A stretch of DNA of 26,506 bases. It comes from a virus. The notes under the pieces are model-generated. The model was not told where the DNA came from, searched no databases, and worked only from the letters and a program-made list of their open reading frames with translations. The first letter of the stretch is position 1. Each line of letters starts with the position of its first letter. Positions 9,762-26,036 of this stretch are shown one piece after another. Both the position numbers and the translations under genes were made by a program. The DNA lies in the IMG/VR virus record IMGVR_UViG_3300005747_000203, positions 1-26,506 of that record. One strand, given 5' to 3'.

Positions 9762-9900
9762 ATTGGTTTCCTTTGTTGTTATTGTTTATAAAAGCCTCTA
9801 CATAACTTTCAGTTTTTACCTAAATTGTCGCCCTCGAGCGGTAAAGTTATTACACTTAATATTTATGTTTTGGCAGTTGCCCCTTAATAAAGGTGCACAA
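9762..9900 (-). promoter_or_regulatory. 139-bp leader of the capsid gene with inverted repeats
   Basis: This is the longest non-coding gap inside the virion cluster. It has no ORF beyond an ATG-stop. Two arms, ATAACTTTACC (9840-9850 on the complement) and GGTA...AAAGTTAT (9802-9820), can pair around a near-palindromic CTCGAG core, giving a long imperfect hairpin. A second stem, TGCACCTT-TATT-AAGGGGCA with one mismatch, lies near 9880-9900. A phage promoter is expected here by analogy with phi10, but the motif found elsewhere in the window is not clearly present. The AAAGGA ribosome-binding site is close to 9770. Confidence 0.45.
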
Positions 9901-10146
9901 CTATCTACATTTCCATTTACGTAATGCTAAAGCTTTTCTTGTAGGCTGACCATTTGGTTTTTTCATAGCCCCTTTTACTCCAGACATACGTGCACAGAAA
10001 CTAGCTCTACGCTTTGCAGCTTTAGAACCTCTTTTTACTTTTCCTGTAACTGGAGCTTTTAAATTTGCACCAGTTTTATTTTTAAAATATTTCCTTCCAG
10101 CAGCGTTTAAACCACCAGAAGGAGATTGATATCTTTTAGCAGGCAT
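9901..10146 (-). CDS. Small basic protein (DUF6321-like)
   Basis: This 81-aa Lys/Arg-rich protein begins MPAKRYQSPSGGLNAAGRKY and ends WKCR, with RASFCARMSG in the middle. I recognise it as a conserved small protein of marine phages resembling DUF6321; its function is not established. It is the last of three consecutive tiny basic genes between scaffold and capsid, 3 bp after the previous one. Two Cys (RASFCAR and WKCR) could be redox- or metal-related, but no zinc motif is complete. A capsid- or DNA-associated role is only an inference from charge and position. Confidence 0.78.
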   Translation of the reverse strand: MPAKRYQSPSGGLNAAGRKYFKNKTGANLKAPVTGKVKRGSKAAKRRASFCARMSGVKGAMKKPNGQPTRKALALRKWKCR

Positions 10147-10149
10147 CGA

Positions 10150-10299
10150 CTACTTTTTCTTAGCTGTCTTTGCTGCTCTTTTAAATTGCTTCTTAGTTGG
10201 TGCTCCTTTAGCTCCAACTTTACGCATTTTTTCACCACTACCTGCTGCTATTCTTTTACGTTTAGCATGGATGTTAGCGTATAAACCTGTTTTAGCCAT
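10150..10299 (-). CDS. Tiny basic protein, 49 aa
   Basis: The ATG at 10299 opens a 49-codon frame ending in TAG at 10150. The product starts MAKTGLYANIHAKRKRIAAG and ends KTAKKK; nearly a third of its residues are Lys or Arg. Similar small proteins with the AKTGLYANIHAKR start occur in marine phages, to my recollection, with unknown function. Its ATG overlaps the stop of the preceding 35-aa gene as TAATG, so the two are likely translationally coupled. It is followed 3 bp later by the 81-aa basic gene. Confidence 0.72.
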   Translation of the reverse strand: MAKTGLYANIHAKRKRIAAGSGEKMRKVGAKGAPTKKQFKRAAKTAKKK

Positions 10300-10406
10300 T
10301 ACTTTTTTTTCTTAGCTTTCATTATTTTTTTCTTTAATGCGCTAGGTAGTCTCTTCTGTCCACCTTTTAATGCTTTACTAGGTTTTTTCATTTTACTTCC
10401 GTACAT
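10299..10406 (-). CDS. Tiny basic protein, 35 aa
   Basis: The ATG at 10406 has a good AGGAG 8-10 nt upstream and opens a 35-codon frame ending in TAA at 10299. The product begins MYGSKMKKPSKALKGGQKR and ends KAKKKK, so it is strongly positive with no hydrophobic core. It is the first of three basic ORFs between scaffold and capsid, and its stop overlaps the next ATG. The ribosome-binding site and the overlap make it more than chance. Function unknown. Confidence 0.65.
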   Translation of the reverse strand: MYGSKMKKPSKALKGGQKRLPSALKKKIMKAKKKK

Positions 10407-12989: not shown

Positions 12990-13175
12990 TTATTTATTTT
13001 CCGCTCTCTCTTTTAAGGTTAAAATGAAATTAATTACGTCTGCTTGACCTGCTCTAAAGTATAAATCCTCAAGTTTCTCGTGTATTCTAGGAGATTTCTC
13101 TGGATATACTTCGGTTAATAACTTAATTAAATCATTAACAGTAGCAGGTAAAACTAAATCGTCTAAATCATTCAT
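12990..13175 (-). CDS. Hypothetical small protein, 61 aa
   Basis: I do not recognise this protein. It is acidic at the N-terminus (MNDLDDLVLP) and helical, with a LEDLYFRAGQADVINF segment. It is the first gene after the nrdB-end hairpin and its promoter-like motif, and thus opens the structural gene cluster. A weak AGAAG lies before the ATG. Its stop is immediately followed by the ATG of the proline-rich gene. Confidence 0.7.
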   Translation of the reverse strand: MNDLDDLVLPATVNDLIKLLTEVYPEKSPRIHEKLEDLYFRAGQADVINFILTLKERAENK

Positions 13176-13185
13176 AATTTATTCT

Positions 13186-13205
13186 TCTAAAAAGGGTACT
13201 TTAGT
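13186..13205 (-). promoter_or_regulatory. Phage promoter-like motif C
   Basis: On the minus strand ACTAAAGTACCC is followed by TTTT and TAGA. This matches the GTACCC-N4-TAGA core found at three other places in the window, and its 13-nt GACTAAAGTACCC is identical to copy A near 25.84 kb. Placing the G of TAGA at +1 puts GTACCC at -12 to -7, the specificity region of T7-family promoters. It overlaps the nrdB stop codon and lies upstream of the structural genes. It also overlaps a hairpin, so its role is ambiguous. Confidence 0.5.
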
Positions 13206-13208
13206 CCC
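13189..13208 (-). terminator. Weak intrinsic terminator at the nrdB end
   Basis: The minus strand reads GGGAC-TAAA-GTACCC followed by TTTTT. GGG/CCC and AC/GT pair with one bulged A, giving a short hairpin and U-run directly at the nrdB stop codon. The stem is short, so termination would be partial. The same bases belong to promoter-like motif C. Confidence 0.45.
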
Positions 13209-14151
13209 ACAAGCTTCCTGTAATAGTTCCTTTGTTGTATTCTGTAGCTCTGTTTTCAAAGAAGTTAGCATGTTCTACGCCATTTAACACCCAATCAAGC
13301 CATGATAATGGGTTGTCTTTGATACCATAATTAGGTTTTAAAGACAGTTGTAACAATCTTCTGTCAGCAATGTAACGTATGTATTGTTTAACTTCTTCTG
13401 CTTTTAATCCTCTAATACCACCCATCTCAAAAGCTAAATCAATAAACCTATCTTCTAGGTCTACCATATCTCTACAAGTCTGGTAGATACTTGCTTTAAA
13501 TTTTTCTGTCCAAATCTCAGGGTGCTGTTTTATTAAAGCGTGAAATAATTTAATCATGTTTTCCACGTGGTGCGTCTCATCTCTAATAGACCAAGTAACA
13601 ATCTGACACATACCCTTCATTCTTCCAAATCTTTGAAAGTTAAGAAGCATGACAAATGATGCAAACAATTGAAGTCCTTCACCAAATGCTGAGAAACAAG
13701 CCATCTCTCTTGCAAGACCATCTAGTCCTTGTCCTTTAGATTTAAATAAATAACTATGTTTGTCAGCCATTTCTTTATAATCTTGAAATGCTTTGTACTC
13801 ACTATCAGGTAAACCAATGGTATCATTAAGTAATGAATAGCTGTGTGCATGGTTTGCTTCAGAAGTTGCTATAGCTGATAGCATCATTCTAATTTCAGGC
13901 GGTTTAAATTTAGGTATGTATTTATCTAAATAAGCTTGCGCAATATCTACGTCACCTTGAGTAAAGAATTTTAGTATTTGATTTATTAAATTCTTTTCTT
14001 CTTTAGTTAATCTTTCATTCCAATCTCTAACATCTTCATGCAATGGAACTTCACTTGGTAGCCAGTGCATTTTCTGTTGCATCTCATAAGCTTCAAAAGC
14101 CCAGTCATATTCAAATGGTTTGTAGTGTGTTCTTTCTTTAAATAAACTCAT
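13201..14151 (-). CDS. nrdB: Ribonucleotide reductase class I, beta subunit
   Basis: The 316-aa protein is the radical-generating subunit that partners NrdA to reduce ribonucleotides to deoxyribonucleotides. Diiron ligands of the class I family can be matched: Asp67 (in FFTQGD), Glu98 and His101 (SEANH), Glu158 (FGEGLQLF), and Glu192 and His195 (RDETHH). Tyr105, four residues after His101, is at the position of the E. coli radical Tyr122. It is slightly shorter than E. coli NrdB (376 aa). An AGGGAG lies before ATG. It is separated from nrdA by a 70-aa gene and is the last gene of the nucleotide cassette. Confidence 0.95.
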   Translation of the reverse strand: MSLFKERTHYKPFEYDWAFEAYEMQQKMHWLPSEVPLHEDVRDWNERLTKEEKNLINQILKFFTQGDVDIAQAYLDKYIPKFKPPEIRMMLSAIATSEANHAHSYSLLNDTIGLPDSEYKAFQDYKEMADKHSYLFKSKGQGLDGLAREMACFSAFGEGLQLFASFVMLLNFQRFGRMKGMCQIVTWSIRDETHHVENMIKLFHALIKQHPEIWTEKFKASIYQTCRDMVDLEDRFIDLAFEMGGIRGLKAEEVKQYIRYIADRRLLQLSLKPNYGIKDNPLSWLDWVLNGVEHANFFENRATEYNKGTITGSLWD

Positions 14152-14152
14152 G

Positions 14153-14365
14153 TTAATTGTCTCCCTTAAATAATGGTTCTATCTCTTTTAGATATTCTTC
14201 GTTTTCTTTTTGTATTCTTTTTTCTGTGTCATAATACTTATAGGCATCCCAATCATATTCTGACTTTTCTTTTTTCTTTTTACCAAAGATTTCATTCCAT
14301 CCTTTACGGTATGCATCATTAGGTATTAATTTATCACCTCTTATTTTGTAATCTTTAAATCCCAT
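14153..14365 (-). CDS. Hypothetical protein between nrdA and nrdB, 70 aa
   Basis: I do not recognise this protein. It is highly charged and aromatic, with GWNEIFGKKKKEKSEYDWDA in the middle and a helical acidic C-terminal part. It has no Cys, so it is not a glutaredoxin, which sometimes occupies this place. AAGGA lies 4-5 nt before its ATG, within the end of nrdA, and the nrdB start is 1 bp after its stop. The tight spacing suggests co-expression with the reductase. Confidence 0.7.
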   Translation of the reverse strand: MGFKDYKIRGDKLIPNDAYRKGWNEIFGKKKKEKSEYDWDAYKYYDTEKRIQKENEEYLKEIEPLFKGDN

Positions 14366-14366
14366 A

Positions 14367-16121
14367 TTATCCTTCGCATGCCAAGCAGCTATCTGCTTCA
14401 GCTATTATTGTTCGTTCTACTTTTAATGATACTAGCTCTGCTCTTTTGATTGCTTCAGAACGACAGTAGTACAATGTTTTTAATTTCTTTTTCCAAGCTA
14501 ACATGTGCATGTTGTGCAACTCTTTAATGTTAACATCAGCAGGCACAAATATATTTATGCTTTGACTTTGACAAATGTATTGTTGCCTATCTGCTGCATG
14601 TTCAATTACCCACTGTTGATTTATTTCAATAGCAGTTTTGAAAACATCTTTCTCATGCTCTGACAAATCTTCGAGATGCATAACCGAGCCTCTTTTAGCG
14701 ACAATGGATGTCCATATATCATCATTATTTAATCCTTTCTTTTCTAGTAATTGTTCTAAATATTTGTTCTTTACCAAGAATGACCCAGACATAGTTTTTT
14801 GCACGTATGCATTTGCTCTGTATGGTTCTACTGAAGGTGAAGTTGTCCCACATATAATAGATGAAGAAGCGTTTGGTGCGATGGCTAACAAGTGTGCATT
14901 ACGCATCCCTGTGTGTTCCATATCAGGTGCTTCTCCTCTTTTAACTGCAAGTCTTTTACTTTCTTCAACAGCTTCTGTCTTTAACTTTTTAAATATTTGC
15001 ATGTTTAAAGACTTAGCTAAAGCTGATTCAAAAGGTATGTTCTTAGATTGTAAGTATGAATGAAAACCCATAGCACCTAAGCCAAGACTTCTTTCACTTA
15101 CTGCACTGAACTTGGCTCTAAATAATTCTTCAGGAGCGTGCTCAATAAAATGTTGTAGTACGTTATCTAAAAATCTAATTAAATCAGGAATAAACAAAGC
15201 ATCTTTTTTCCACTCATCATATTTTTCAATGTTAACACTAGACAGACAACAAACTGCTGTTCTGTTTTCGCTAGTAGGTAAAGTTATTTCACTACATAAA
15301 TTAGAGTGATGAACTTTTAATCCTAAATCTTTTTGTGTTTGTGGAAGAGCCTCATTAATAGTATCAATAAAAGAAATGTAAGGTTCACCAGTAGTAACTC
15401 TTGTTTCTAATATCTTTAACCACAAGTCTCTAGCTGATACAGTTCTAACTATTTCTTTTGTGTGTGGGTCAATTAAATTCCAACTGTCATCTTGAGTAGG
15501 GTTCTGAATACATTTGTCTATTAGTTCCATAAAATCATTAGTAACATTTACACCGTGATGTAAGTTAAGATTTTTTCTATGAGAATCTCCACCTGTAGGT
15601 TTTCTCATTTCAGTAAATTCTATAATCTCAGGATGCGAGATGTCTATGTAAGATGCATAACTTCCTCTTCTAGTTTTACCTTGAGAGAATGCTAGTATCT
15701 CAGAATCAACTACATGCATAAAAGGAATTGTGCCTGAGCTTTGACTTCCACCTGAAGTAGCTGTTCCATCGGAACGCACATGTCCCCAGTAACCACCAAT
15801 GCCACCACCAACAGAAGCAAGCCATGCGTTCTCTGTGTAGTGCCCTGTTAAACCTTGTCTACTATCTCCAACATAATTTAAAAAACATGAGATAGGCATG
15901 CCACGTTTAGTTCCGCCGTTAGATAAAATAGGCGTAGAAAACATAAACCACAATTTAGATGCGTAGTTATAAATTCTGTCAGCCATTTCATCGTTGTCAG
16001 AGAAAGCTTTTGCTGCTCTCATAAACGCATCTTGTGGTGAAGTTTCTTCTGGTAATAAATATCTATCTTGTAATGTTTTCTTACCAAAGTCTGTTAATAA
16101 ATTATCTCTGCTATACTCCAT
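14367..16121 (-). CDS. nrdA: Ribonucleotide reductase class I, alpha subunit
   Basis: The 584-aa catalytic subunit carries the expected motifs: TPILSNGGT and Cys79 (ISCF), which would be one half of the active-site redox pair; NLCSE near residue 275 with the thiyl-radical Cys and its Asn and Glu partners; CCLSSVN near residue 290 with the second Cys of the pair; PNASSSIICGTTSPSVEPY; a Tyr pair in LYYCRS near residue 550; and a C-terminal CLACEG that would shuttle electrons. E. coli NrdA is 761 aa; the start here is at the core domain, so the N-terminal ATP-cone is absent. It overlaps speD by 11 bp. It supplies dNTP precursors for phage replication. Confidence 0.95.
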   Translation of the reverse strand: MEYSRDNLLTDFGKKTLQDRYLLPEETSPQDAFMRAAKAFSDNDEMADRIYNYASKLWFMFSTPILSNGGTKRGMPISCFLNYVGDSRQGLTGHYTENAWLASVGGGIGGYWGHVRSDGTATSGGSQSSGTIPFMHVVDSEILAFSQGKTRRGSYASYIDISHPEIIEFTEMRKPTGGDSHRKNLNLHHGVNVTNDFMELIDKCIQNPTQDDSWNLIDPHTKEIVRTVSARDLWLKILETRVTTGEPYISFIDTINEALPQTQKDLGLKVHHSNLCSEITLPTSENRTAVCCLSSVNIEKYDEWKKDALFIPDLIRFLDNVLQHFIEHAPEELFRAKFSAVSERSLGLGAMGFHSYLQSKNIPFESALAKSLNMQIFKKLKTEAVEESKRLAVKRGEAPDMEHTGMRNAHLLAIAPNASSSIICGTTSPSVEPYRANAYVQKTMSGSFLVKNKYLEQLLEKKGLNNDDIWTSIVAKRGSVMHLEDLSEHEKDVFKTAIEINQQWVIEHAADRQQYICQSQSINIFVPADVNIKELHNMHMLAWKKKLKTLYYCRSEAIKRAELVSLKVERTIIAEADSCLACEG

Positions 16122-16539
16122 TTTTAATACTTTCTAATGCTGAAGCTGTTGAGTAAGCTAAATCAGACATTTGTGGTACAGTAATTAAACTTCTGTCTCT
16201 GTCTAATATTTTGTACTGCACTTTAATTGGTTTAAATTGTTCTAAATGTTTAAAGATTTTATCTTCATGCATATCACTACAAGTGTAAACATCTAGTTGT
16301 AACATTGAAGGATTTTTTTCATCCCATACATGCAGTGCTATGTGTGATGTTTCAATAACAGCGACACAAGTAGCCCCTTTGTTTCCTTTTTTATCTACGT
16401 AATAGGCCTGCGGCTCACCAAGTAACTTCATTTTAATTTTAGGAACTAATTCTGTAACCCATTTAGTTACTTCTTCTATACTTTTAGGTGGCTGAGTTAC
16501 TTCAGCTCTTACTATTAAATGGTTGTGTTGTAATATCAT
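16111..16539 (-). CDS. speD: S-adenosylmethionine decarboxylase-like pyruvoyl enzyme
   Basis: The 142-aa protein matches the bacterial/archaeal SpeD family, which self-cleaves before a Ser to form a pyruvoyl group and decarboxylates S-adenosylmethionine for spermidine synthesis. Visible are MKLLGEP near residue 37, ETSHIALHVW at 63-72 and LDVYTC at 82-87. Ser65, His70 and Cys87 match the Ser63, His68 and Cys83 of the Thermotoga enzyme. The residue before the cleavage Ser is Thr64, where Thermotoga has Glu and E. coli has Lys. Some SpeD homologues act on arginine or ornithine, so the substrate is not certain. It lies between DUF3310 (1-bp overlap) and nrdA (11-bp overlap), as one operon. Confidence 0.85.
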   Translation of the reverse strand: MILQHNHLIVRAEVTQPPKSIEEVTKWVTELVPKIKMKLLGEPQAYYVDKKGNKGATCVAVIETSHIALHVWDEKNPSMLQLDVYTCSDMHEDKIFKHLEQFKPIKVQYKILDRDRSLITVPQMSDLAYSTASALESIKNGV

Positions 16540-16814
16540 TATATTTTTGTTCCAAATACTGAGTATTCTTTTTCAGGTTCGTAGTTAAGTGTGAATTGAC
16601 TAGGCTCTGGAAATTCTTGAGCAATAATCATATCAATATATTGTTTTGCTTTTTTTAAATCTTCTAATTGTTTTTCTGCCGCAAGGTGTTTGCTTTTCCA
16701 ACGACAAATATATTTAATAACATTGCCTTCTGCATACGGAATGTTATTTTTCATAATAAAATCAGCAGGTTCTATTGTCATAGAATAATGCTTAGGTTTT
16801 TTTATTGCATCCAT
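16539..16814 (-). CDS. DUF3310 protein, like the C-terminal part of T7 gp1.7
   Basis: The 91-aa protein carries the DUF3310 pattern: KPKHY at the start, then EPADFI, AEGNVIKYICRWKSK near residue 30 and LEDLKKAKQYID near residue 52. This domain is found in T7 gp1.7, a nucleotide kinase that makes T7 sensitive to dideoxythymidine, and in many stand-alone phage proteins. Here only the domain is present, so nucleotide-related function is an inference supported by its place between the exonuclease and speD/nrdA. Its ATG lies 13 bp inside the end of the exonuclease gene, with AGGAG about 10 nt upstream. In T7 the gene is early; here it has moved after gene 6. Confidence 0.85.
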   Translation of the reverse strand: MDAIKKPKHYSMTIEPADFIMKNNIPYAEGNVIKYICRWKSKHLAAEKQLEDLKKAKQYIDMIIAQEFPEPSQFTLNYEPEKEYSVFGTKI

Positions 16815-17551
16815 AGTTTTACTTCTCCTGTAGTTTTATTGTATTCACCGTGTCTAAGAATCCTTGCAACTCTTGCTTGTTGTAAAGCCTCAGCTTCGGT
16901 GTAACCCTTGTCTTTAAACATGCCTACAACAATCTTCCATAGGTCTAAGATGGGTACATTAGTGTATTTGCTTATTAACTTCTCAGCTGTCTTAACACCA
17001 ACACTAGGTATACCAGTGTAACCATCAACAGCATCACCAGCCATAGTCTGTATCATAAACCAATAATCAGCTAATCTTTTAGGTGTTTCTGTAACAACGT
17101 GTCCATCAACAGACAATAAAGAAGGTATTTGTTTAAGGTCTTTGTCAATAGATACAATAATACGTTCTTCTTTTGTAGGTTCTGTTGCCATAATACCTAG
17201 AACATCGTCAGCTTCTAAGTTTTTATAAATGACACCGTTGTGGTTTTTCATTACGTACTCACGCAGCGCATTTAATACCATAGGTTTTCTTTTTAGTTTA
17301 CGATTTGCTTTATAAGTTGGAAGCACATCTTTTCTAAAATTGTTTTTATCAGTCAAGGCCACAACATAATCATCTGCTTCAAGTTGTGCACCTAAGTCAT
17401 CTATCTGAGCATACACATCATCCATACAAACCTTTGCATCACAGTGTAAAGTCCATAAACCGTCACCCCAATGCGTGTCTATCTCATTCATAGTGGCAAT
17501 TTTATATATTAAAATATCACCATCAATTAACAATACTTTTTTCTTAGCCAT
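16802..17551 (-). CDS. 5'-3' exonuclease, T7 gp6-like
   Basis: The 249-aa protein is a FEN/PIN-family exonuclease that would remove RNA primers and degrade host DNA to nucleotides. Metal-binding acidic motifs are visible in order: LIDGD near residue 7, FRKDVLPTYKANR near 72, EADDVLG near 114, SIDKD near 134, and GDAVDGYTGIPSVGVKTAEK near 172, which contains the helix-hairpin-helix. T7 gp6 is about 300 aa, so this is a compact version. AAAGGA precedes the ATG. It overlaps DUF3310 by 13 bp and contains promoter-like motif D in its last third. Confidence 0.93.
   Translation of the reverse strand: MAKKKVLLIDGDILIYKIATMNEIDTHWGDGLWTLHCDAKVCMDDVYAQIDDLGAQLEADDYVVALTDKNNFRKDVLPTYKANRKLKRKPMVLNALREYVMKNHNGVIYKNLEADDVLGIMATEPTKEERIIVSIDKDLKQIPSLLSVDGHVVTETPKRLADYWFMIQTMAGDAVDGYTGIPSVGVKTAEKLISKYTNVPILDLWKIVVGMFKDKGYTEAEALQQARVARILRHGEYNKTTGEVKLWMQ
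16944..16963 (-). promoter_or_regulatory. Phage promoter-like motif D
   Basis: The minus strand reads ACTAATGTACCC, then ATCT and TAGA. It keeps the GTACCC-N4-TAGA core and differs from copies A and C by one base in the upstream block. It lies inside the exonuclease gene, about 130 bp before the DUF3310-speD-nrdA-nrdB cassette, where an internal promoter would make sense. A coding constraint could explain the bases, but the exact match to the other copies argues against pure chance. Confidence 0.45.
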
Positions 17552-17574
17552 ATACTATTTTCCTTTCCTATAAT

Positions 17575-17952
17575 TTACTTTAAATTTTTTGCCAAAAATA
17601 TTTCGGACAATGGTATAAGTACAAATTTACTTTTCCAATTATCACCACCGTTTTTAATATTCTTGATGTACTTTTTTGTTAAACGCTTAACTGTTTTGGT
17701 ATCAAAAATTAATCTACAATAATCTTTTTTACCATCAGCTAAAATATGAACCCAGTATTCAGCCTCAGTTGCCATAATTCCTGAAGGCTTACCATAAGAT
17801 TCAACTTCAATTGCAATGTTATTAGTTTTCTGCCACCAATCACGTTCCGTTTTAACTTCTAGTTTTCCTTCTTTAATTATTTTCTCAACGCGTTTCTCTC
17901 TTTCCTGTCCATATTTTAAATCAATATCAAATTTATTATTAGCTTTGCTCAT
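17575..17952 (-). CDS. Putative PD-(D/E)XK nuclease-like protein
   Basis: This 125-aa protein has a layout typical of small PD-(D/E)XK proteins in marine phages: a helix with Glu17 and Glu19 (YGQEREKRVEKII), then LEVKTERDWW with Glu32 and Lys34 as an E-x-K pair, then IAIEVESYGKPSGIMATEA with Glu49 and Glu51. The target is unknown; a repair or resolvase role beside DNA polymerase and exonuclease is only inferred. The canonical first Asp is not obvious, so catalysis is not certain. Its ATG overlaps the DNA polymerase stop as TAATG. Confidence 0.65.
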   Translation of the reverse strand: MSKANNKFDIDLKYGQEREKRVEKIIKEGKLEVKTERDWWQKTNNIAIEVESYGKPSGIMATEAEYWVHILADGKKDYCRLIFDTKTVKRLTKKYIKNIKNGGDNWKSKFVLIPLSEIFLAKNLK

Positions 17953-19688
17953 TAATGTGTCTCACTCCAATTGTTTCCTATTTTGTATTCCCCTGTTAGA
18001 GGAAGTCTTAGATTAAATAGTTCGCCAGTTCGTTGGATAGATTCGACAGCTAACTTACCGATTTTATCAGCATCTTTTTCAGGACACTCAATTTGTATTT
18101 CATCATGTACCCAAACAACTTGGTGCACATCTGTATACGCTTGTATTGCTTTATTAAATTCAACAAGCCATTGTTTACATACAATAGCTCCACCAGATTG
18201 TAATAAAGTATTAAGAGCTGCGTGAGAAGAGCGAACTCTAACCTGTCTTTTATCAAGACCAATTAAATAACCCTTCTCTGCAACTTTTTGCACATCTGTT
18301 ATCAATTTGTTTAGTGCAGGCAATCCATTTAAAAATCTCTTTTTAATTTTGGAAGCCGCTGCAACAGTTTTGTTAGTAACAGACGCAATTTTGGTTACGC
18401 CACCGCCGTATAAAAAGCAGTAGTAAAACCTTTTGGCTAGGTCTCTCGAATCTAAACCTGCTAGTTTTTGTGTTTCAGTATGTATATCACCGTCTAACAC
18501 AATTTTAGCATAGTCTCCATTGTCGTACCTAGCCATGTAGTGAGCCAACATCCTCACCTCTAAACCTGAGACGTCAACGCCTACAAGTTTTTTTCCTGCT
18601 GGAACTGTAAATAAGGCTCTACATTCTTTGCCAAACGGCACGCCAACGCTAGGCACTTGTGCCATGTTGGGGTATGAATGAGTAGCCCTAGCTGTAACAG
18701 TTGAATTGGTATTACATGTTCCATGTATACGCCAATTTTTCTCATGCTTTAACCAAGCTTGAGTTCCTGTTGCAAGTTGTGCAATTCTTTTATCAAGTAA
18801 AAAATGTTCACATAATATTTTAGCTTCTGGATATGGAAGTCCTGCTAAAATAGTTTCATCTAATTTTGGTTTGCCATCATCTGTATATTCTGTTGGTTTC
18901 CAATTGTATTTAGTAATTAATTTATTGGCAATGTGGTGTCTGCTTGATGGATTAAATACAACTGTGTTCTCTTTATAAAACACTTCACCCTTAACATATC
19001 CTCTAGCTTTGTTATTAACTTTTGGAATAAAAGGTGTCTTAACTATTTCAGGTGGGAACAGTTTTTGTAACTCATCTTCGATTTCAATTCTTCTCTCATT
19101 TAATTTAGAATATAATTTTTGTGCATCTTCAACATTAAAAGTAAAACCATAAACTTCTTGATTAAAAATTAAAGAAGCAACATCATGTTCTAATTGCATT
19201 GCATTTTTTGAATAACCTTTTGTTTCAATCATTTTGTATAGATTGTGAGTTACTTCAACATCTTGCACACAATAATCACGCATCTCTGGTGTGTATTCCT
19301 TCCAATCAGTATCAAATTGTGCTTTGTAAGTTCCTATTCTATTGCCCCAAGCTTTTAAACTGTGTCTGCCAATGCAATCTCTAGGAAAATCTTTTCTTTG
19401 AAAATCTTTTTCTTTAACATCTGGATATAACAATCTAGTTGCTACAAGTGTGTCAAATATTTCTGCTTTAAAATGTACAAAATTAACAAACAACTTTTTT
19501 AATACTGGAATATCGTATTTAATAATATTGTGACCAATAAGTAATTTAGCTTTTGCAAGTTTTTTAACAGCTTCATCAACTGATAATAATAAAACTTCGT
19601 TAGTGTCTATATCTTTTAAAACAATACAATGAACTTTAGACACAACATCTAAAAATCCATCGGTCTCAATGTCAAATACATATCTCAT
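17952..19688 (-). CDS. DNA polymerase, family A, T7 gp5-like
   Basis: The 578-aa replicative polymerase has a 3'-5' exonuclease domain starting at FDIETDG with Asp6 and Glu8, as in T7 Asp5 and Glu7. The polymerase domain has motif A (VDVSGLEVRML) near residue 370, motif B (DLAKRFYYCFLYGGG) near 418 and motif C (WVHDEIQIEC) near 527. T7 gp5 has 704 aa. The thumb insert that binds thioredoxin in T7 is shortened here: between LQKLF and VVFNPSS there are about 30 residues versus about 70 in T7. AAGGAT precedes the ATG. It follows two small genes downstream of primase-helicase, in T7-like order. Confidence 0.97.
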   Translation of the reverse strand: MRYVFDIETDGFLDVVSKVHCIVLKDIDTNEVLLLSVDEAVKKLAKAKLLIGHNIIKYDIPVLKKLFVNFVHFKAEIFDTLVATRLLYPDVKEKDFQRKDFPRDCIGRHSLKAWGNRIGTYKAQFDTDWKEYTPEMRDYCVQDVEVTHNLYKMIETKGYSKNAMQLEHDVASLIFNQEVYGFTFNVEDAQKLYSKLNERRIEIEDELQKLFPPEIVKTPFIPKVNNKARGYVKGEVFYKENTVVFNPSSRHHIANKLITKYNWKPTEYTDDGKPKLDETILAGLPYPEAKILCEHFLLDKRIAQLATGTQAWLKHEKNWRIHGTCNTNSTVTARATHSYPNMAQVPSVGVPFGKECRALFTVPAGKKLVGVDVSGLEVRMLAHYMARYDNGDYAKIVLDGDIHTETQKLAGLDSRDLAKRFYYCFLYGGGVTKIASVTNKTVAAASKIKKRFLNGLPALNKLITDVQKVAEKGYLIGLDKRQVRVRSSHAALNTLLQSGGAIVCKQWLVEFNKAIQAYTDVHQVVWVHDEIQIECPEKDADKIGKLAVESIQRTGELFNLRLPLTGEYKIGNNWSETH

Positions 19689-19689
19689 G

Positions 19690-19956
19690 TTATATCCTTT
19701 TTAATGATTTAATAATACTTCTTGGGTAAACGTTTCTGTCACCAAAGGCAGCATCTTTTTTGTCGTAGCTTGCAAAAGAATAAACGTAATCTTTTGTTTT
19801 TTTATAAATGTAAGCTTCGGTATATATTGTAGCACATTCCAAACCATTAAAATCTGAAATAGTAGAATCTCCAACAATATCTTCCCAAATTATAATGTAC
19901 TTAAAATATTTTACATCTCCAATAATAATTGGTGGACTTAATTTTTGTTTAGGCAT
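19690..19956 (-). CDS. Hypothetical protein, 88 aa
   Basis: I do not recognise a characterised family. The protein is rich in Ile and aromatic residues, with FKYIIIWEDIVGDSTISDF near residue 18, and looks like a beta-rich single domain with a basic C-terminus. Similar small proteins next to the polymerase occur in marine podoviruses, to my recollection, without known function. Its ATG overlaps the previous stop as TAATG, and its stop is 1 bp before the DNA polymerase ATG, so it is part of the replication operon. Confidence 0.7.
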   Translation of the reverse strand: MPKQKLSPPIIIGDVKYFKYIIIWEDIVGDSTISDFNGLECATIYTEAYIYKKTKDYVYSFASYDKKDAAFGDRNVYPRSIIKSLKRI

Positions 19957-20180
19957 TAATGTTTAGTTACTATCTTTGTTTCTAATTGCCAAGCTTCATA
20001 CGATTGCTCACACAATTCAGAAATAGCTTTGTCAATAAATTTTTTTGTTTTTTCATCAGGAACTAAAACAGCTATGGTTTTTTCTGGCTGTAATTTAGCT
20101 TTTAATAAATGAGTTATGACATATTCTGTCCAGCTCATTGCTTCTATTTTGTCATTAATTTCTTGTTTACGCAAAGTCAT
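19956..20180 (-). CDS. Hypothetical protein, 74 aa
   Basis: I do not recognise this protein. It is helical and charged, with SWTEYVITHLLKAKLQPEKT near residue 16 and a central VLVPDEKTKKFIDKAI segment. There is no membrane segment or metal motif. Its start has AGGAG 7 nt upstream and lies 14 bp inside the end of primase-helicase. Tight overlaps on both sides put it in the replication operon. Confidence 0.7.
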   Translation of the reverse strand: MTLRKQEINDKIEAMSWTEYVITHLLKAKLQPEKTIAVLVPDEKTKKFIDKAISELCEQSYEAWQLETKIVTKH

Positions 20181-21765
20181 TGTTCACTCCTGTCATTGTT
20201 TCGGTTAAACATCCAGTAGCTAAATCGTAATGCAAGTCACATGCTTTACCAGTTTCACCACTAAATCTATTTTTTAAAACGTTTACTTGTGCTATGTTAT
20301 TCTCAGCTTGCAAATCTCTGGACAAACTAATGACCATATCGCTAAGTTGAGCAATGGATTGAGAGCCTCTAAGACTGTTCATAGATACCTGCACCCCATC
20401 TTCATAACCTTTGTTGCCATCTTTAGTTCTGGACAAATGAGATACTAACAGTAACCCAATACCAGTCTCTTCAACTAAAGTTCTAAGTTTTGATACAAAG
20501 TAATCAATAAGCTTTCGCTCATCACTTGTGTGCTCATCACCCAAGGCTGACAATGCCATGTGTAAATGGTCAAGAACTACAAAATCAACATTGCAGGCTT
20601 TGGCCATGTATCTAATCTTTGAAAGTAAATTGTCAGCTATGGTAGAACCAAAGTGATTATATAAATAAAACTTCCCATTACCAACAGTTGATTTAAAAGT
20701 CTCCTGTAGTTGTTGTTCATTAACTCCCTCTCTAGTTAAATGTAAAGGTTTCTTCAACTTAACACCCATAATACCTAAAGCACTTCTCTTAACTGTTTCT
20801 TCCAAGGCTATGTAACCTACGGTGTAATCTTTTTGAAGCAAGTGCAAGGCTATGTGTCTGCAAAAACTTGACTTACCAACTCCACTTCCTGCGGTAATTG
20901 TAACAAGCTCACCTTTACGCAATCCATGTGTCTTAGTATTAAGACATTCAAACGGGTAAGGAACGCTAACTGTTTTGTCTTCTGCTTTTATTTCTGACCA
21001 CATGTCAGCACCCAATATAATACCATCAGGCCTGTAAGCTTTTGCACTCCACATACAATTAGTAAGCTCTGCTGTTTTACCTGCTAACAACATTTCATTA
21101 GCATCTTTTAAAGGTAATGTTGCTATCTTACATTTGTTTGGTGAGAATAATTTAGCACATTCTATTGCTGCTTTTTGTCCTGCATCGTCTTGGTCAAACA
21201 TTAAGACAACAGATTCAAAACCTTCAAGCCACTCAAGTTCTTTTTGAATATCTTTTTTAGCTCCTGCTGCACCTGTCTTAATACTTACTGTAGGAAATTT
21301 ATTTGAATTTAATTTACTAACTGTTAAGGCATCTATTTCACCTTCTGTAATAACAATCATTTTACCTTTGTCACGCCATAAATGCTGTCCAAACAATCCT
21401 GATGCTTTTGCATTGCCCAACCACTGAAATGTTTTATCTGGAAATCTTAATTTTTGTGCGACTAAAGTTTTATCTTTGTCGTAGTAATTTGCTATCTGGC
21501 AAGGTCTGCCAAAGTAACTACCAGTTTGATAATTAAATTTTTGTACTGTGTTTAAATCTATTTTTCTTTTTGATAACTCTGCGATATTACCTGTGATAAA
21601 ATCTTTACTAACTTCTTTTTGTATTGGTTGCATATCGTCAAGTCCTTTTTTAATTGTGTTACATGAAAAACAAAAAGTGTGACCATCCGAATACAAAGAA
21701 TTTGCATCGCTTGAGCCACACTCATCGCATGGCGTGTGGTATAAAAACTCACTAGCACTATCCAT
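20167..21765 (-). CDS. DNA primase-helicase, T7 gp4-like
   Basis: The 532-aa bifunctional protein makes RNA primers and unwinds the fork. A four-Cys zinc site (Cys13, Cys16, Cys32, Cys35) forms the primase zinc-binding domain. Toprim landmarks follow: VITEGEIDAL near residue 139 and LMFDQDDAG near 190. The RecA-type helicase has Walker A (GSGVGKSS) near 291 and Walker B (FVVLDHLH) near 395. The C-terminus NNDFA resembles the acidic-aromatic tail that T7 gp4 uses to bind polymerase. The ATG at 21765 has no Shine-Dalgarno and lies inside a small upstream ORF. An internal ATG at codon 45 has one, so a short form is plausible. Confidence 0.96.
   Translation of the reverse strand: MDSASEFLYHTPCDECGSSDANSLYSDGHTFCFSCNTIKKGLDDMQPIQKEVSKDFITGNIAELSKRKIDLNTVQKFNYQTGSYFGRPCQIANYYDKDKTLVAQKLRFPDKTFQWLGNAKASGLFGQHLWRDKGKMIVITEGEIDALTVSKLNSNKFPTVSIKTGAAGAKKDIQKELEWLEGFESVVLMFDQDDAGQKAAIECAKLFSPNKCKIATLPLKDANEMLLAGKTAELTNCMWSAKAYRPDGIILGADMWSEIKAEDKTVSVPYPFECLNTKTHGLRKGELVTITAGSGVGKSSFCRHIALHLLQKDYTVGYIALEETVKRSALGIMGVKLKKPLHLTREGVNEQQLQETFKSTVGNGKFYLYNHFGSTIADNLLSKIRYMAKACNVDFVVLDHLHMALSALGDEHTSDERKLIDYFVSKLRTLVEETGIGLLLVSHLSRTKDGNKGYEDGVQVSMNSLRGSQSIAQLSDMVISLSRDLQAENNIAQVNVLKNRFSGETGKACDLHYDLATGCLTETMTGVNNDFA
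21631..21647 (-). promoter_or_regulatory. Internal ribosome-binding site and ATG in primase-helicase
   Basis: The minus strand has AAGGA, nine bases, then an in-frame ATG at 21633 (codon 45, Met-Gln-Pro). Initiation here would give a 488-aa protein lacking all four zinc-binding Cys but keeping Toprim and helicase. T7 gene 4 uses an internal start in the same way to make gp4B. The full-length start has no comparable site. Confidence 0.55.
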
Positions 21766-21817
21766 GATTTATTAATACTAAGTTAAATATTACTAAAACA
21801 AATATTATTTCAAACAT
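21758..21817 (-). CDS. Tiny hydrophobic ORF upstream of primase-helicase, 19 aa
   Basis: ATG at 21817 has AGAGGA about 7 nt upstream and opens 19 codons ending in TAG at 21758. The product is almost entirely Ile/Val/Leu/Phe (MFEIIFVLVIFNLVLINHG), enough for one membrane span. It overlaps the primase-helicase start by 8 bp. Because primase-helicase lacks its own Shine-Dalgarno, this ORF may serve as a translational coupler, a membrane peptide, or both. It is too short to be sure by sequence alone. Confidence 0.45.
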   Translation of the reverse strand: MFEIIFVLVIFNLVLINHG

Positions 21818-21839
21818 TGTAATCCTCTGGTTATGGGTT

Positions 21840-21869
21840 AAAACTCACTGGGTATTTCTACCCAGTAAG
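21840..21869 (-). terminator. Strong intrinsic terminator after the lysozyme-like gene
   Basis: The minus strand forms an 11-bp stem CTTACTGGGTA/TACCCAGTGAG with one G-U pair, a GAAA tetraloop, and TTTT directly after. It begins 10 bp beyond the lysozyme-like stop. This is the strongest hairpin I see in the window and would separate the RNAP-SSB-endonuclease-lysozyme unit from the replication genes. Confidence 0.88.
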
Positions 21870-21879
21870 CACAAACAAA

Positions 21880-22305
21880 CTATCTCAACAATTCTTTAAC
21901 ATCGAAGTGTGGAGATAAAGAGCCAGTCACATCTCTGTGACCAACAATTTCAACTTGATTGTATTCCGTCTTTAGTTCAGTAATAAGTTTAACGAGACTA
22001 TCATACTGTTTAAAGGTATAGTTACAATCAGGCTGTCCATTGAGTGCTTGTCCGCCTATGAGACAAACTCCAATAGAATTTTTATTAGATAAAGTTATAT
22101 TATTATCAACGTGAGCTCCTGCAATTTGAATATCTCTACCATCTTGCACTGCCCCGTCTCTAGTTATAACTTTGTGAAACGCACAAGAAAACAATCCGTC
22201 TTTTCTGTGCTGTGTATCTAAATCTGTTACATCCAAGTTTTCACTTGGTTTTGTTTCGGAAGAATGAATTACGATATATTTAGTTTCTTTTCTTATATTG
22301 CTCAT
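21880..22305 (-). CDS. T7 lysozyme (gp3.5) homologue, amidase fold with altered active site
   Basis: The 141-aa protein aligns with T7 gp3.5, an N-acetylmuramoyl-L-alanine amidase that also binds and inhibits T7 RNA polymerase. Conserved parts are IVIHSSETKPS (His14), AFHKVITRDG, DGRD, NSIGVCLIGG and VGHRDV (His123). However, the third zinc ligand (T7 Cys130) is Ser131, the catalytic Lys128 is Ser129, and Tyr46 is Phe43; His133 lies two residues after Ser131. Amidase activity may therefore be lost or rebuilt. I chose ATG at 22305, with AAGGAT upstream, over a TTG two codons earlier. It overlaps the endonuclease stop by 4 bp and is followed by a strong terminator. Confidence 0.88.
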   Translation of the reverse strand: MSNIRKETKYIVIHSSETKPSENLDVTDLDTQHRKDGLFSCAFHKVITRDGAVQDGRDIQIAGAHVDNNITLSNKNSIGVCLIGGQALNGQPDCNYTFKQYDSLVKLITELKTEYNQVEIVGHRDVTGSLSPHFDVKELLR

Positions 22306-22718
22306 AACCAATCCTTTGGAACGTGTTTGTCAGCATACGTAAAACCGTATTTCTCACACCACATCCCATATGTTGTTTTTGATTTTTTACTAATTCTAGT
22401 TTTTGAATTGCTAAAGATAAATCTAATATCTAATTTTGGGTGTTGTTCTTTAATAAGACGCATCTTTTGACGGTCTTGAGTTGTAAAGTAACCTTTTGTT
22501 TCAATATAAATATCTTTGTCAATTAAATAAAAATCAGGTGTGTAAGTATGAACCTTTGAAGGCTTAGTGTAATTTAACTTAGTCTTCTCGTATTCATACT
22601 TAACACTTTTTGTTTTGAGTTCAGCTGCAATTGCATCTTCCAATCCAGACCTGAACCCATGCACTAAACCAACTTGCTTAGAAGTCAGTTTCGTTTTCCG
22701 TCTCATTGCTAGGTACAT
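22302..22718 (-). CDS. Endonuclease I (Holliday junction resolvase), T7 gp3-like
   Basis: The 138-aa protein closely follows T7 gp3 (149 aa). Active-site residues Glu27 (FRSGLED), Asp62 (TYTPDF), Glu73 and Lys75 (IETKG) correspond to T7 Glu20, Asp55, Glu65 and Lys67. Downstream are LDIRFIFSNSKTRI and a YGMWCEKYGFTYADK segment also matching T7. The enzyme resolves branched DNA and breaks host DNA. Its ATG at 22718 lies 41 bp inside the SSB gene; an ATG four codons later is an alternative. Its stop overlaps the lysozyme-like start as ATGA. Confidence 0.95.
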   Translation of the reverse strand: MYLAMRRKTKLTSKQVGLVHGFRSGLEDAIAAELKTKSVKYEYEKTKLNYTKPSKVHTYTPDFYLIDKDIYIETKGYFTTQDRQKMRLIKEQHPKLDIRFIFSNSKTRISKKSKTTYGMWCEKYGFTYADKHVPKDWL

Positions 22719-23301
22719 TTTCTTCTACTGCCTTTTCTGGTGATGTAAAACCACCTTCTACTTTGTCAAAGCCGTAGCCTTTTGCATTGTCTGCACCACC
22801 TTCAACAAGCTCTGTTATTTGCACAGCTCGCAATCTTAGTGATACACCTGCACCTGCCATAGCTGTATTCCAAGGAACAAGCTCAGCACTTACTTTCATT
22901 TTACTTCCAGACCACACATTGGTATCAACCATTGGTTTTCCAGAACTATCAAAGATAGCAACTTTAAATGGAACTACTTTTCCATCTGAAGTAATGATTT
23001 GTGCTTTACGTTTAAACTTAAACTCAATGTTTCCAGTTTCTTTACCTTCTTCATCAGTTTCAGTAACGTAAGGTGCATTAGCCATTTTTACAGGTTTCTT
23101 GCTTTTCTCCTTAGCTATCTCCATACTCTTTTGCATCTCAGCATCAATCAACGTGACTAATGGCTGAGCCTTATCTGCACTAACTGCAAGATTGACTTTG
23201 TAATGTCCATCTTTATCAAACTTAGTGTCAGGCGTAGTGAGCCAAGCGTATTTACTAACGCCTTCTTCACTAACAATTTTAACATAGTTACTTTTTGCCA
23301 T
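22678..23301 (-). CDS. Single-stranded DNA-binding protein, T7 gp2.5-like
   Basis: The 207-aa protein is similar in length to T7 gp2.5 (232 aa) and has an OB-fold-like beta-rich core followed by an acidic C-terminal tail ending in ENETDF; an acidic tail with terminal Phe is what T7 gp2.5 uses to contact polymerase and primase-helicase. SVSKYAWLTTP-like N-terminal and DTNVWSGSKMKVSAELVPW segments near residue 125 fit marine gp2.5 homologues. AGGAG lies 6 nt before ATG, immediately after promoter-like motif B. It overlaps endonuclease I by 41 bp. Confidence 0.88.
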   Translation of the reverse strand: MAKSNYVKIVSEEGVSKYAWLTTPDTKFDKDGHYKVNLAVSADKAQPLVTLIDAEMQKSMEIAKEKSKKPVKMANAPYVTETDEEGKETGNIEFKFKRKAQIITSDGKVVPFKVAIFDSSGKPMVDTNVWSGSKMKVSAELVPWNTAMAGAGVSLRLRAVQITELVEGGADNAKGYGFDKVEGGFTSPEKAVEENVPSNETENETDF

Positions 23302-23309
23302 GTATACTC

Positions 23310-23332
23310 CTATCTACTATGGGTACTTAATT
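23310..23332 (-). promoter_or_regulatory. Phage promoter-like motif B
   Basis: The minus strand reads AATTAAGTACCC, ATAG, then TAGATAG. It agrees with motif A at 18 of 21 positions and lies in the 33-bp gap between RNAP and SSB, right before the SSB ribosome-binding site. The gap leaves little room for anything else. The G of TAGA would be the start point, giving a leader of about 15 nt. Confidence 0.65.
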
Positions 23333-23334
23333 GC

Positions 23335-25782
23335 TTACGCAAAAAAGAACACACTTTCCCTGAGTTGTTTAATATCTAAATCACCTTTTTCAGGGACATC
23401 AGGTAATTTAGAGTGCAGGCTAGGATGTAATTGTTTAAGAACATCATTTCTAAAATTTAATAGAATATCATTTTCCGTAAACATTGTAACAAACGCTTCT
23501 CTCAAAGATTGATTAAGCGTTTCAACATCTCCTGCTGTAGTACCAAAACTATCATGCACGTTACAAAAATTAGTAATTCCTTTTTTGTAAGCAATGTTAA
23601 CAGTCTCCATCATGGCAGCACTGTCAACGCTGTGCACTAAATTAGGTGCTACGCCGTTTCCCATTCTTAGTTTGTCTGTCTTATCAGTCTCGGTGTTAAT
23701 TCTGGGTTTAATAACTTGACCCATTAACATAGCCTTAACCCTTTTAGATTTCATCTCAGGATAAGATTGATATACAGGAAAACCAACTGGTGTAACCCAG
23801 TGAACAGGTAACTGTTCTTTAGCCACTACTCTCGCAATAGTCTGTAAATAATTCATACCAACTCTCGCTGATTTTAAATTATCTCCAATACTATCCCAGA
23901 TAACACTAGCCAAATAGCTAGCAGGCTTAAAAACGTCATCCAAGAACGGATGGTTTTCTCCTTTGTCTTTTCTCTTAGTTAAATCCTCAACAACAAAATC
24001 AGTACATGAGTATCTAGTTGAACCGTAACAAATAGTCATAATACTACGCTTAGTCGTTGAGCGTTTAATGCCGTAGTCAAGCCACAGCTGTGCAAAAGGT
24101 TTGTTTTCTTTCACATCTAATTTTAACTTTTCAATAACAGCATCAGCCACAAGTTGATAAATATCTTGTGGTTTGTCTGTTGGTGTTAAGTTAACAAGCT
24201 TACCTGCTTTTGCATCTTTAAGCATTAACGAATAAACTTGAAGTCCATTACAAGAACCATCAACACTCACTGGTATGTGAGATATAAAGCCCTCGCCATG
24301 TTCTTTAAACTTACGCCATTCATCACAAAATGCCAGAAATTGAAATGCATTAGAAGCGTTTTCCCATCTTCTATTAGTCAACGGGTCATTAGCACATTCT
24401 AAAATCCAGTGTTCATTATCTAATACCCACTGTTCTCTGTCTGATAAAGCAACTTTGTCTTCACCATACATGTTTGCACCGTGTACAGCTAACCAAAAGA
24501 TACCTTTGTTTTCTTTAGTAATAGGCGCACCATTAGTAAAAGACAATAAAGCCTTAGCACCTGATATGCTTTGATAATTTAAAAACGCTGGCACACAATA
24601 AGCTCTGCCTCTGAAATCTAATTGCAGCGGAAAGTATAATGTTGCGTAATCTTTAAACTTATCACCAAGCCACATAATTTTAGCATACAGCAAACGCTTA
24701 GAAAATCTTCTAGCATTCTCTGTGTGAGCTATAACGGCCTGCTTCTTCCACACACGCCTAGTGTCAGGGTTCGTATCAATGTCATGCGGTTTGTTAGGTA
24801 TCTCAATGTTTTGAATTGATGGCATTCCACCAACGTCAAGACCTTTGTCCCATGCATCCTGCATTACTTTGAGTACAAACTTATTAACTTTAAAAGGCGT
24901 ATTCTGCATCAAGTTAACAGCGTTATACACTTTTGGCATATCAAAATTCTCAAGTTCTTTTTTAAACAACTTGTTTTTTTGTTTCACCAAATCTAACTCA
25001 GGCATTTCTTTTGTCCAGTAACCCCCACCAACAACAGTTGACCACATTTTAGGTGGCATAACAGTTGGTAAGTATTCTGGGTTTAAGAGTTCATTAAAAC
25101 CATTTCTGTTTTTAATCCATTCTCTAGTTTTTTCTGTTTGTTTGATTATTTTAGCTTTTTTATGATTAATGGTTTCTGTACCAATTTCAATCATACCAGT
25201 AGCATAACACATCAGTTCAACTAATCTAAGACCTACGTGTAACTTAGTTGGTGTCTCCCATTCTTCCCAAGCAGCCACTTCACCTCGTTTTGCGGTCTCT
25301 TTTAGTTTTCTTCTTTTGTATGTGTAATTGAAAGACCTTTTGTCTAAATCTTTTTTAACTGTGTCGTATAACTCAGGGTTTAAAGTTTTAAAGTTTCTAA
25401 GTGATATCTCAGTCTCAACTTTACCGCCAAGGGATATACAGGTAGCCGTTAAAGGTTTGTATTGTGTTATCGTATTGATAATATGCTTGCCTGTAATTAA
25501 AGCAAGTATCTCTGGCTCAACTTCACACATTTTAACAAAAGCAATTGGTGGTTTACCAATCGTTTTCTTAGATGCTTCCTGAAGCCATTCACCAATAGCC
25601 ATTGCTAAAGGTCGTATGGTGTTAGCCACCATTACTTTACCATAACTGGTAACACTTTCTTCTTCTCGTTCTACGTGTGACTGTAAACGCTTGTTGGTTC
25701 TATTCTTACCAAGCGCAGCCATCTCCTTTTCATGTGCCAACTCATCTTTATAAGTAGGCATGCTTTCAATTAATTTAGCCAT
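23335..25782 (-). CDS. Single-subunit DNA-directed RNA polymerase, T7-like
   Basis: The 815-aa protein (T7 gp1 is 883 aa) transcribes the phage middle and late genes. Catalytic landmarks are present: LDFRGRAYCVPAF near residue 388, SVDGSCNGLQ near 507 with the catalytic Asp, KRSIMTICYGS near 574 with the Lys and Tyr of the O helix, and NVHDSFGT near 741 with the second catalytic Asp. The C-terminus ends FFFA, like the FAFA foot of T7 RNAP. AAGGAG precedes the ATG by about 8 nt. Being encoded just before SSB and a lysozyme homologue, it fits the T7 circuit where lysozyme damps the polymerase. Confidence 0.97.
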   Translation of the reverse strand: MAKLIESMPTYKDELAHEKEMAALGKNRTNKRLQSHVEREEESVTSYGKVMVANTIRPLAMAIGEWLQEASKKTIGKPPIAFVKMCEVEPEILALITGKHIINTITQYKPLTATCISLGGKVETEISLRNFKTLNPELYDTVKKDLDKRSFNYTYKRRKLKETAKRGEVAAWEEWETPTKLHVGLRLVELMCYATGMIEIGTETINHKKAKIIKQTEKTREWIKNRNGFNELLNPEYLPTVMPPKMWSTVVGGGYWTKEMPELDLVKQKNKLFKKELENFDMPKVYNAVNLMQNTPFKVNKFVLKVMQDAWDKGLDVGGMPSIQNIEIPNKPHDIDTNPDTRRVWKKQAVIAHTENARRFSKRLLYAKIMWLGDKFKDYATLYFPLQLDFRGRAYCVPAFLNYQSISGAKALLSFTNGAPITKENKGIFWLAVHGANMYGEDKVALSDREQWVLDNEHWILECANDPLTNRRWENASNAFQFLAFCDEWRKFKEHGEGFISHIPVSVDGSCNGLQVYSLMLKDAKAGKLVNLTPTDKPQDIYQLVADAVIEKLKLDVKENKPFAQLWLDYGIKRSTTKRSIMTICYGSTRYSCTDFVVEDLTKRKDKGENHPFLDDVFKPASYLASVIWDSIGDNLKSARVGMNYLQTIARVVAKEQLPVHWVTPVGFPVYQSYPEMKSKRVKAMLMGQVIKPRINTETDKTDKLRMGNGVAPNLVHSVDSAAMMETVNIAYKKGITNFCNVHDSFGTTAGDVETLNQSLREAFVTMFTENDILLNFRNDVLKQLHPSLHSKLPDVPEKGDLDIKQLRESVFFFA

Positions 25783-25820
25783 GATTATAACTCCTTCATA
25801 TTTAGTGGGTTAATGTTTTG

Positions 25821-25843
25821 CTATCTATTACGGGTACTTTAGT
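25821..25843 (-). promoter_or_regulatory. Phage promoter-like motif A
   Basis: The minus strand reads ACTAAAGTACCC, GTAA, then TAGATAG. It overlaps the stop codon of the 65-aa gene and lies about 40 bp before the RNAP start. Together with motif B it defines a 21-bp element with three mismatches. A T7-type promoter here would let the polymerase drive its own gene. Confidence 0.65.
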
Positions 25844-26036
25844 CGTCACTTCTAAAATAAGTGTTTAGTTCCTTTTCTAAAGTCATAGCTGGGTGAGGTT
25901 CTTTACTCTCTAAAATACGCTCAATCAAAGTAGTGGCTCTGTGTGCCACTTGGTTTGGCGTAAGTTCGTCATACTCTTTAACACTATAAGACCTTTGTAG
26001 AAATCTTATAATTTGGTATTTTTTCTTCCACTTCAT
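25839..26036 (-). CDS. Hypothetical early protein, 65 aa
   Basis: I do not recognise this protein. It is basic at the N-terminus (MKWKKKYQIIRFLQRSY) and acidic later, helical, with LTPNQVAHRATTLIERILE near residue 25. Its start has a clear AAAGGAG 8-9 nt upstream, directly after the 33-aa membrane peptide gene. Early small genes before RNAP in T7-like phages often target host functions, but nothing in the sequence points to a specific one. Confidence 0.75.
   Translation of the reverse strand: MKWKKKYQIIRFLQRSYSVKEYDELTPNQVAHRATTLIERILESKEPHPAMTLEKELNTYFRSDD

Follow-up and report, generated by a model that had tools for sequence, protein, structure and literature searches.

A 26,506-base fragment of a virus record (IMGVR_UViG_3300005747_000203; hereafter the window) carries four copies of a short element, GTACCC-N4-TAGA, which, judging from sequence comparisons, are very probably promoters of the phage's own T7-family single-subunit RNA polymerase (RNAP). 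All four lie on the minus strand, which is the coding strand, and they are the sole exact matches on either strand of the window. A first-pass annotation had placed them at 25821-25843 (copy A, ACTAAAGTACCCGTAATAGATAG), 23310-23332 (copy B, AATTAAGTACCCATAGTAGATAG), 16944-16963 (copy C, ACTAATGTACCCATCTTAGA) and 13186-13205 (copy D, ACTAAAGTACCCTTTTTAGA), coordinates that we confirmed, and had judged far fewer than one chance occurrence to be expected. In agreement with this, a first-order Markov model of the window gave an expectation of 0.01 exact matches per window, with at most 1 in 300 simulations. For scans we used a wider consensus, T[A/T]A-N-GT[A/T/G]CCC-N-T-NN-[T/A]AGA, which matched 4 times in sense and 0 times in antisense in the window (0.0 expected on the coding strand; 200 simulations). 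In favour of a chance repeat picked out by reading, the window held 14 matches against 10.9 expected when two mismatches were allowed, with no clear excess, and a pattern this loose is uninformative; the four exact copies against 0.01 expected, and their recurrence in synteny and in a blind scan (see below), refute chance, whose probability we regard as negligible. The element is best explained as a promoter with the putative consensus TAA-N-GT[A/T/G]CCC-N-T-NN-TAGA. ACTAA had been described as immediately upstream of GTACCC; it is present, with one base intervening, and in two copies (25837 and 13199) the gene before the element ends in this TAA as its stop codon.

Sequence comparison assigns the window to a T7-type, Pelagivirus-like phage of the Autographiviridae, whose host would be SAR11, an ocean bacterium. 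The minus strand carries all its major genes, in the order RNAP, single-stranded DNA-binding protein (SSB), endonuclease, lysozyme, primase/helicase, DNA polymerase, exonuclease, AdoMet-decarboxylase-like gene, ribonucleotide reductase (RNR) alpha, RNR beta, portal, scaffold, capsid, tail tube A and tail tube B, and both this order and the RNAP match Pelagivirus isolates. The RNAP (23335..25782, minus strand; 815 amino acids), presumed reader of the element, is a single-subunit T7-type enzyme encoded in the same genome (Pfam RNA_pol, E=2.7e-107; T7 RNAP structures, E ~1e-142, aligning by sequence across its specificity loop, KRVKAMLMGQVIKPRIN). It is 82-83% identical to the RNAPs of Pelagibacter phages HTVC168P (83%), Eistla, HTVC142P and HTVC031P, 75% to that of HTVC109P and 67% to that of HTVC019P, all six filed as Pelagivirus, Autographiviridae.

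A T7-family promoter set consists of several short, nearly identical sequences that point the way the genes do and stand ahead of the middle and late cassettes, and this is the arrangement found. Copy A (25824..25841, minus strand; TAAAGTACCCGTAATAGA) lies upstream of the RNAP gene, with a proposed +1 at G 25825, 43 nt before the RNAP ATG (25782); its TAA (25841-25839) doubles as the stop codon of the upstream open reading frame (ORF) 25839-26036. From here the polymerase would transcribe its own gene, a positive feedback. Copy B (23313..23330, minus strand; TTAAGTACCCATAGTAGA), between RNAP and SSB, has its proposed +1 at G 23314, 13 nt before the SSB ATG (23301), and would drive SSB and the replication genes. 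Copy C (16944..16961, minus strand; TAATGTACCCATCTTAGA; proposed +1 at G 16945) qualifies the earlier statement that the copies precede gene cassettes: they do, but this one sits within the exonuclease gene (16802-17551) and is not intergenic. Downstream of it lie ORF 16539-16814, the AdoMet-decarboxylase-like gene and RNR alpha/beta, and it would drive these nucleotide-metabolism genes. Copy D (13186..13203, minus strand; TAAAGTACCCTTTTTAGA) follows RNR beta, whose stop codon is its TAA (13203-13201), and stands before small genes, the portal gene and the structural cluster; its proposed +1, G 13187, is 12 nt before the ATG at 13175, and it would drive the portal, scaffold, capsid and tail genes. 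The start TAGAAG had been ascribed to copy C; it belongs to the copy at 13186, and the third copy (16944) reads TAGACC. Homology predicts one more copy, ahead of the tail-fibre gene and past the left edge of the fragment.

The first-pass annotation had held that relatives lacking the motif at syntenic places would refute a promoter. What we found was the opposite. The wider consensus gave five or six sense copies per genome in HTVC168P, Eistla, HTVC142P, HTVC031P and HTVC109P, and in these five complete relatives one site precedes RNAP, another separates RNAP from SSB, a third falls within the exonuclease, and others follow RNR beta and precede the tail fibre; some of the genomes also have one close to their end. 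Counterparts of copy A before RNAP in these phages often read GTTCCC; those of copy D read GTGCCC or GTACCC in the five and TAACCTTACACTTTTAG in HTVC019P. The RNAP-SSB copy of HTVC168P, AAAAGTTCCC, is missed by the wider consensus, which found no matches in HTVC019P, HTVC022P, HTVC021P, HTVC134P, HTVC200P and Syn5. More distant relatives lack GTACCC but have another, equally spaced hexamer in the corresponding positions, together with correspondingly different RNAP specificity loops: the HTVC019P group has TAAAGTTACACTATTAG at these sites, with unchanged spacing. The related elements of HTVC134P begin with ATTA instead of TAAA.

We also searched viral contigs for TAAAGTACCCNTNNTAGA without regard to genes; the counts are among the matches listed, and since some contigs may be near-duplicates they are not independent events. 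Homologues of this phage's proteins were carried by 69 of 75 newly fetched loci, with 378 homologue hits on the motif strand and 1 on the other. The contexts were between RNAP and SSB (20), before the tail fibre (25), after RNR beta (11), before RNAP (8) and after the large terminase gene, terL (6). Three complete relatives (L026:39034, L027:7349 and L028:38835, all minus strand) have an antisense promoter-like copy, GGT[A/T]CCCGTATAAGATA, near the genome end, diverging from a sense copy about 250-330 nt off; this could be an origin or an antisense promoter.

Element and polymerase change together. Using the copy B site, between RNAP and SSB, we compared loops with promoters across the fetched RNAP loci, and the loop type, of which there are about a dozen, predicts the hexamer behind the RNAP gene. 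Loops VKAMLMG[E/Q]VIKPRIN and VKTMLLGEVIKPR[I/V]N go with GTACCC (some GTTCCC), VKTRMFGEIIKPRIN (HTVC134P, 46% RNAP identity) with GTACCC, and VKTMLMGEVFKPR with GTACCC or GTGCCC. With VRSHLMGEVFAPQIK the block is GTTACAC, with VQSHLMGEVFAPQIK CTTACAC, with VDAHLMGQVIQP[Q/V]I[R/K] CCTGCAC and with VETHLMGQVIQSTIR CCTGCCC; KVRSHLMGEVIQPVIR is paired with GTCTCCC, KVKSHLMGEVIQPTIR with GTTTC[A/C]C and [V/I]KSNLMGEVIMPQIK with GTTGCAC. These rows are related sequences, and we claim no formal probability for the association. The conserved block at about -12 to -7 varies, then, with the specificity loop, as in T7-family promoters; this co-variation and the syntenic copies support the T7-family reading that the first-pass annotation had proposed. 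Overall divergence and promoter type can part ways: IKPRIN and GTACCC persist at the 46% identity of HTVC134P, and HTVC019P, 67% identical, has FAPQIK and GTTACAC. HTVC031P has loop VKAMLMGEVIKPRIN and GTACCC, HTVC019P VRSHLMGEVFAPQIK and GTTACAC.

In T7 RNAP, N748 contacts -10/-11, R756 contacts -9 and Q758 contacts -8 (PMC5937735). Across our loci, the residue aligned to N748 goes with the first two bases of the block: K or R with GT at -12/-11, D or E with CC, and Q with CT. The pairing of D/E with CC recalls the difference between T7 and T3 at residue 748. When the RNAP tree was computed with the loop removed, the D-type loop, paired with TAAACCTGCAC, fell into two clades, each with its own support, so that loop and promoter changed together more than once or were exchanged together by recombination. 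On balance we think it probable that pelagiphage RNAPs form a natural modular specificity series, in which the N748-equivalent sets -12/-11 (K/R GT, D/E CC, Q CT), positions -10 to -7 are set by the IKPRIN/FAPQIK/IQPxI segment, and a change of loop is followed by every promoter in the genome, even the one within the exonuclease frame, where the peptide is altered to fit the new promoter. If this is true, the cognate promoters of uncharacterised single-subunit RNAPs would be predictable from the loop.

Co-switching also bears on who else might use the element. Host sigma-70-type promoters could be suspected from the AT-rich stretches near each copy, SAR11 hosts being AT-rich; however, the conserved core is GTACCC-N4-TAGA rather than -35/-10 hexamers, it varies with the phage RNAP loop, and HTVC031P and HTVC019P share the host HTCC1062, yet their hexamers differ at the same sites, so that this explanation is scarcely credible. 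The element could instead serve a partner different from the phage RNAP, as a site bound by a replication protein or host factor or used in RNA processing and repeated at operon borders; this would fit the location at gene borders, the two copies overlapping stop codons and the near-terminal divergent copies of relatives, and T7-family promoters can double as replication origins. We nevertheless hold such a site to be very unlikely, as the hexamer co-switches with the part of the RNAP that reads DNA, no other protein was shown to track it, and the element retains the spacing of a mapped phage promoter. A secondary use as an origin could coexist with the promoter function that we favour.

Our first hypothesis for copy C was a coding coincidence, with only the three intergenic copies functional. 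It falls in a conserved peptide, TNVPILDLW, and it is missing from some relatives with other loop types, both of which would suit coincidence. The coding sequence argues otherwise. In ten related genomes, TNVPILD ranks first for synonymous conservation among 244 seven-codon windows in the exonuclease, and its proline is CCC in 10 of 10, a codon that makes up only 3.1% of proline codons in the window. Among 62 distinct exonuclease proteins that have Pro at this site, it is encoded by CCC in 56, CCA in 5 and CCT in 1, as against 9 CCC among 669 other prolines of those genes; CCA is found mainly in GTTACAC-type relatives, where -7 is A. Distant exonucleases have the peptide PKVPFIDNW instead, spelled TAAGGTGCCCTTCATAGA; TTAGGTGCCCTTCATAGA, the promoter that follows the RNAP gene in such contigs, is almost identical. 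The site changes with the promoter type of the clade and is lost in some clades. Copy C is under codon-level constraint, and the hypothesis of coincidence was rejected on the synonymous conservation, the CCC bias and the PKVPFIDNW spelling; we now consider it unlikely. Among the genes downstream, the AdoMet-decarboxylase-like gene (16111-16539, minus strand; Pfam AdoMet_dc, E=1.4e-14) lies just upstream of RNR alpha, and some relatives have no gene annotated as AdoMet decarboxylase.

The register of the element can be compared with mapped promoters of the family. The KP34 promoter, TAATGTTACAGGAGTA, lies at 22197-22212, with the start at nucleotide 22213 mapped by 5' rapid amplification of cDNA ends (PMC6834552), and we found this sequence directly behind the KP34 RNAP gene. 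It aligns gap-free to HTVC019P TAATGTTACACTATTA|G and to the window element, which supports the G of TAGA as +1, the register that the first-pass annotation had proposed; the register is exact with KP34, one base off T7 and two off Syn5. Counted up to the start G, the KP34 promoter and the window element have a common 16-nt arrangement, with TAA/TAAT first, GT at -12/-11, C at -8 and TA at -2/-1 before G at +1, and both occur behind the RNAP gene; KP34 RNAP has Arg at the N748-equivalent (RVR), as in the HTVC019P group. They differ in hexamer (GTTACA in KP34, GTACCC here), and their RNAPs are only about 28% identical.

The cyanophage Syn5 is, like this one, a marine T7-type phage; its promoter is ATTGGGCACCCGTAA (PMC3950665, PMC6395800), of which ACCCGTAA is common to copy A, and one of its copies is inside a coding gene (RNAP). 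In contrast, the Syn5 promoter has 15 bp, its +1 is two bases earlier relative to ACCC, and it has two exact copies against five or six per genome in close relatives of the window phage. Those two, the only sense copies of ATTGGGCACCCGTAA in the Syn5 genome, lie inside RNAP (L122:4929) and just behind the large terminase gene (L122:44797), and the copy behind the terminase is similar to those that follow terL in this phage's relatives. With T7, T3 and SP6 the set shares a short promoter, a specificity loop reading about -12 to -7, a start G after TA and several copies before cassettes. Unlike T7, the window element has an extra base separating the recognised block from the start, and the window RNAP loop is one residue shorter between the 748 and 758 equivalents. 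LUZ100 has a phage-specific promoter, phi1, before its RNAP gene (PMC10134795), suggesting positive feedback as for copy A, a likeness in position.

Binding, melting, exact start, strength and timing are inferred. The specificity loop would read GTACCC, at about -12 to -7, in the major groove, the polymerase would contact the bases at -16 to -14, which are rich in TAA, the NNTA preceding the start would melt, and transcription would begin at the TAGA guanine or no more than 1-2 nt away.

Several points weigh against the promoter reading or parts of it. The T7 alignment (CACTATA|G) puts the start on the A of TAG and the Syn5 alignment (ACCCGTAA|G) on the T, making the start site uncertain by 1-2 nt. 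The loop/hexamer association is perfect at -12/-11 and looser at -10 to -7, and sequences within one clade are not independent. RNAPs with loop VCSHLMGEVFAPQIK (VCSH..FAPQIK; loci L070-L073 and L118) have no recognisable promoter behind the RNAP gene; the sole copy found at these loci, GTTACACTTTTAGA, lies within the exonuclease. Promoter activity of the element with a Pelagivirus RNAP, and its start, are predictions from sequence. Finally, the capsid gene has no preceding copy, unlike T7 phi10.

This last gap had been noticed before, with the expectation that a capsid promoter would turn up. The gap holds: neither the window nor any of the ten relatives examined has a copy ahead of the capsid gene, so the expectation was not borne out. 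The window phage differs in this from T7, T3 and SP6, and from LUZ100, which has a local capsid promoter. A near-match before the capsid in Eistla and HTVC142P, TTGTGCACCCTTTTTAGG, was rejected as a promoter because it forms an arm of a conserved hairpin in which the bases vary while still pairing. The roughly 140 nt directly upstream of the capsid gene contain a conserved two-hairpin RNA element (9762-9905, minus strand), found in the same place in some 75 relatives, with the consensus AGTTGTGCAACC-loop-GGTGGCAACT followed by a hairpin CTTGACC...GACAATCTTG. Covariation is strong: in 30 sequences, 11 of 15 pairs changed on both sides and 99.3% of cells pair; the covariation score was 0.494, against 0.146 in shuffles and ≤0.116 when slid. 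A search of Rfam gave no match for the element. Its presence and the missing promoter copy suggest that capsid expression may be set post-transcriptionally. Three tiny ORFs with basic, lysine-rich products (e.g. MPAKRYQSPSGGLNAAGRKYFKNKTG... and MAKTGLYANIHAKRKRIAAGSGEKMRK...) follow one another between scaffold and capsid (9901-10405, minus strand), and relatives also have small hypothetical genes there.

A promoter for an RNAP of this very clade has been offered before. In 2024, 26 phage RNAPs were tested with predicted promoters, among them the HTVC031P enzyme (R20), paired with the PHIRE prediction AACTAATGCTCAATTTAGAGATA; it is missing from the eight enzymes named as active, and the authors' own suspicion is that promoters were wrong (PMC11475235). 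We found AACTAATGCTCAATTTAGAGATA once in HTVC031P, at 33805 inside a lectin-domain gene and without GTACCC, and the present element there as TAAAGTACCCATAGTAGAATGG at 5226. These data contradict the published prediction and would correct it, with TAAAGTACCCATAGTAGA as the predicted promoter form for RNAPs of this clade, such as that of HTVC031P. In the searchable literature the PHIRE prediction is the only Pelagivirus promoter found, with an earlier description possible in subscription papers, and the T7-family promoter set appears to be new for this phage group as far as can be searched.

Pelagiphages are among the most abundant ocean viruses, and the transcription signals of their T7-type members are otherwise undescribed in searchable papers. 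The element would yield their transcription map from sequence alone, and for a clade in which the RNAP was assayed with another sequence it supplies a corrected promoter that can be tested at once. As the signal and the part of the polymerase reading it change together, the pair can be tested, and the natural series of loop/promoter switches bears on a stated bottleneck, that of predicting cognate promoters for new RNA polymerases (PMC11475235).

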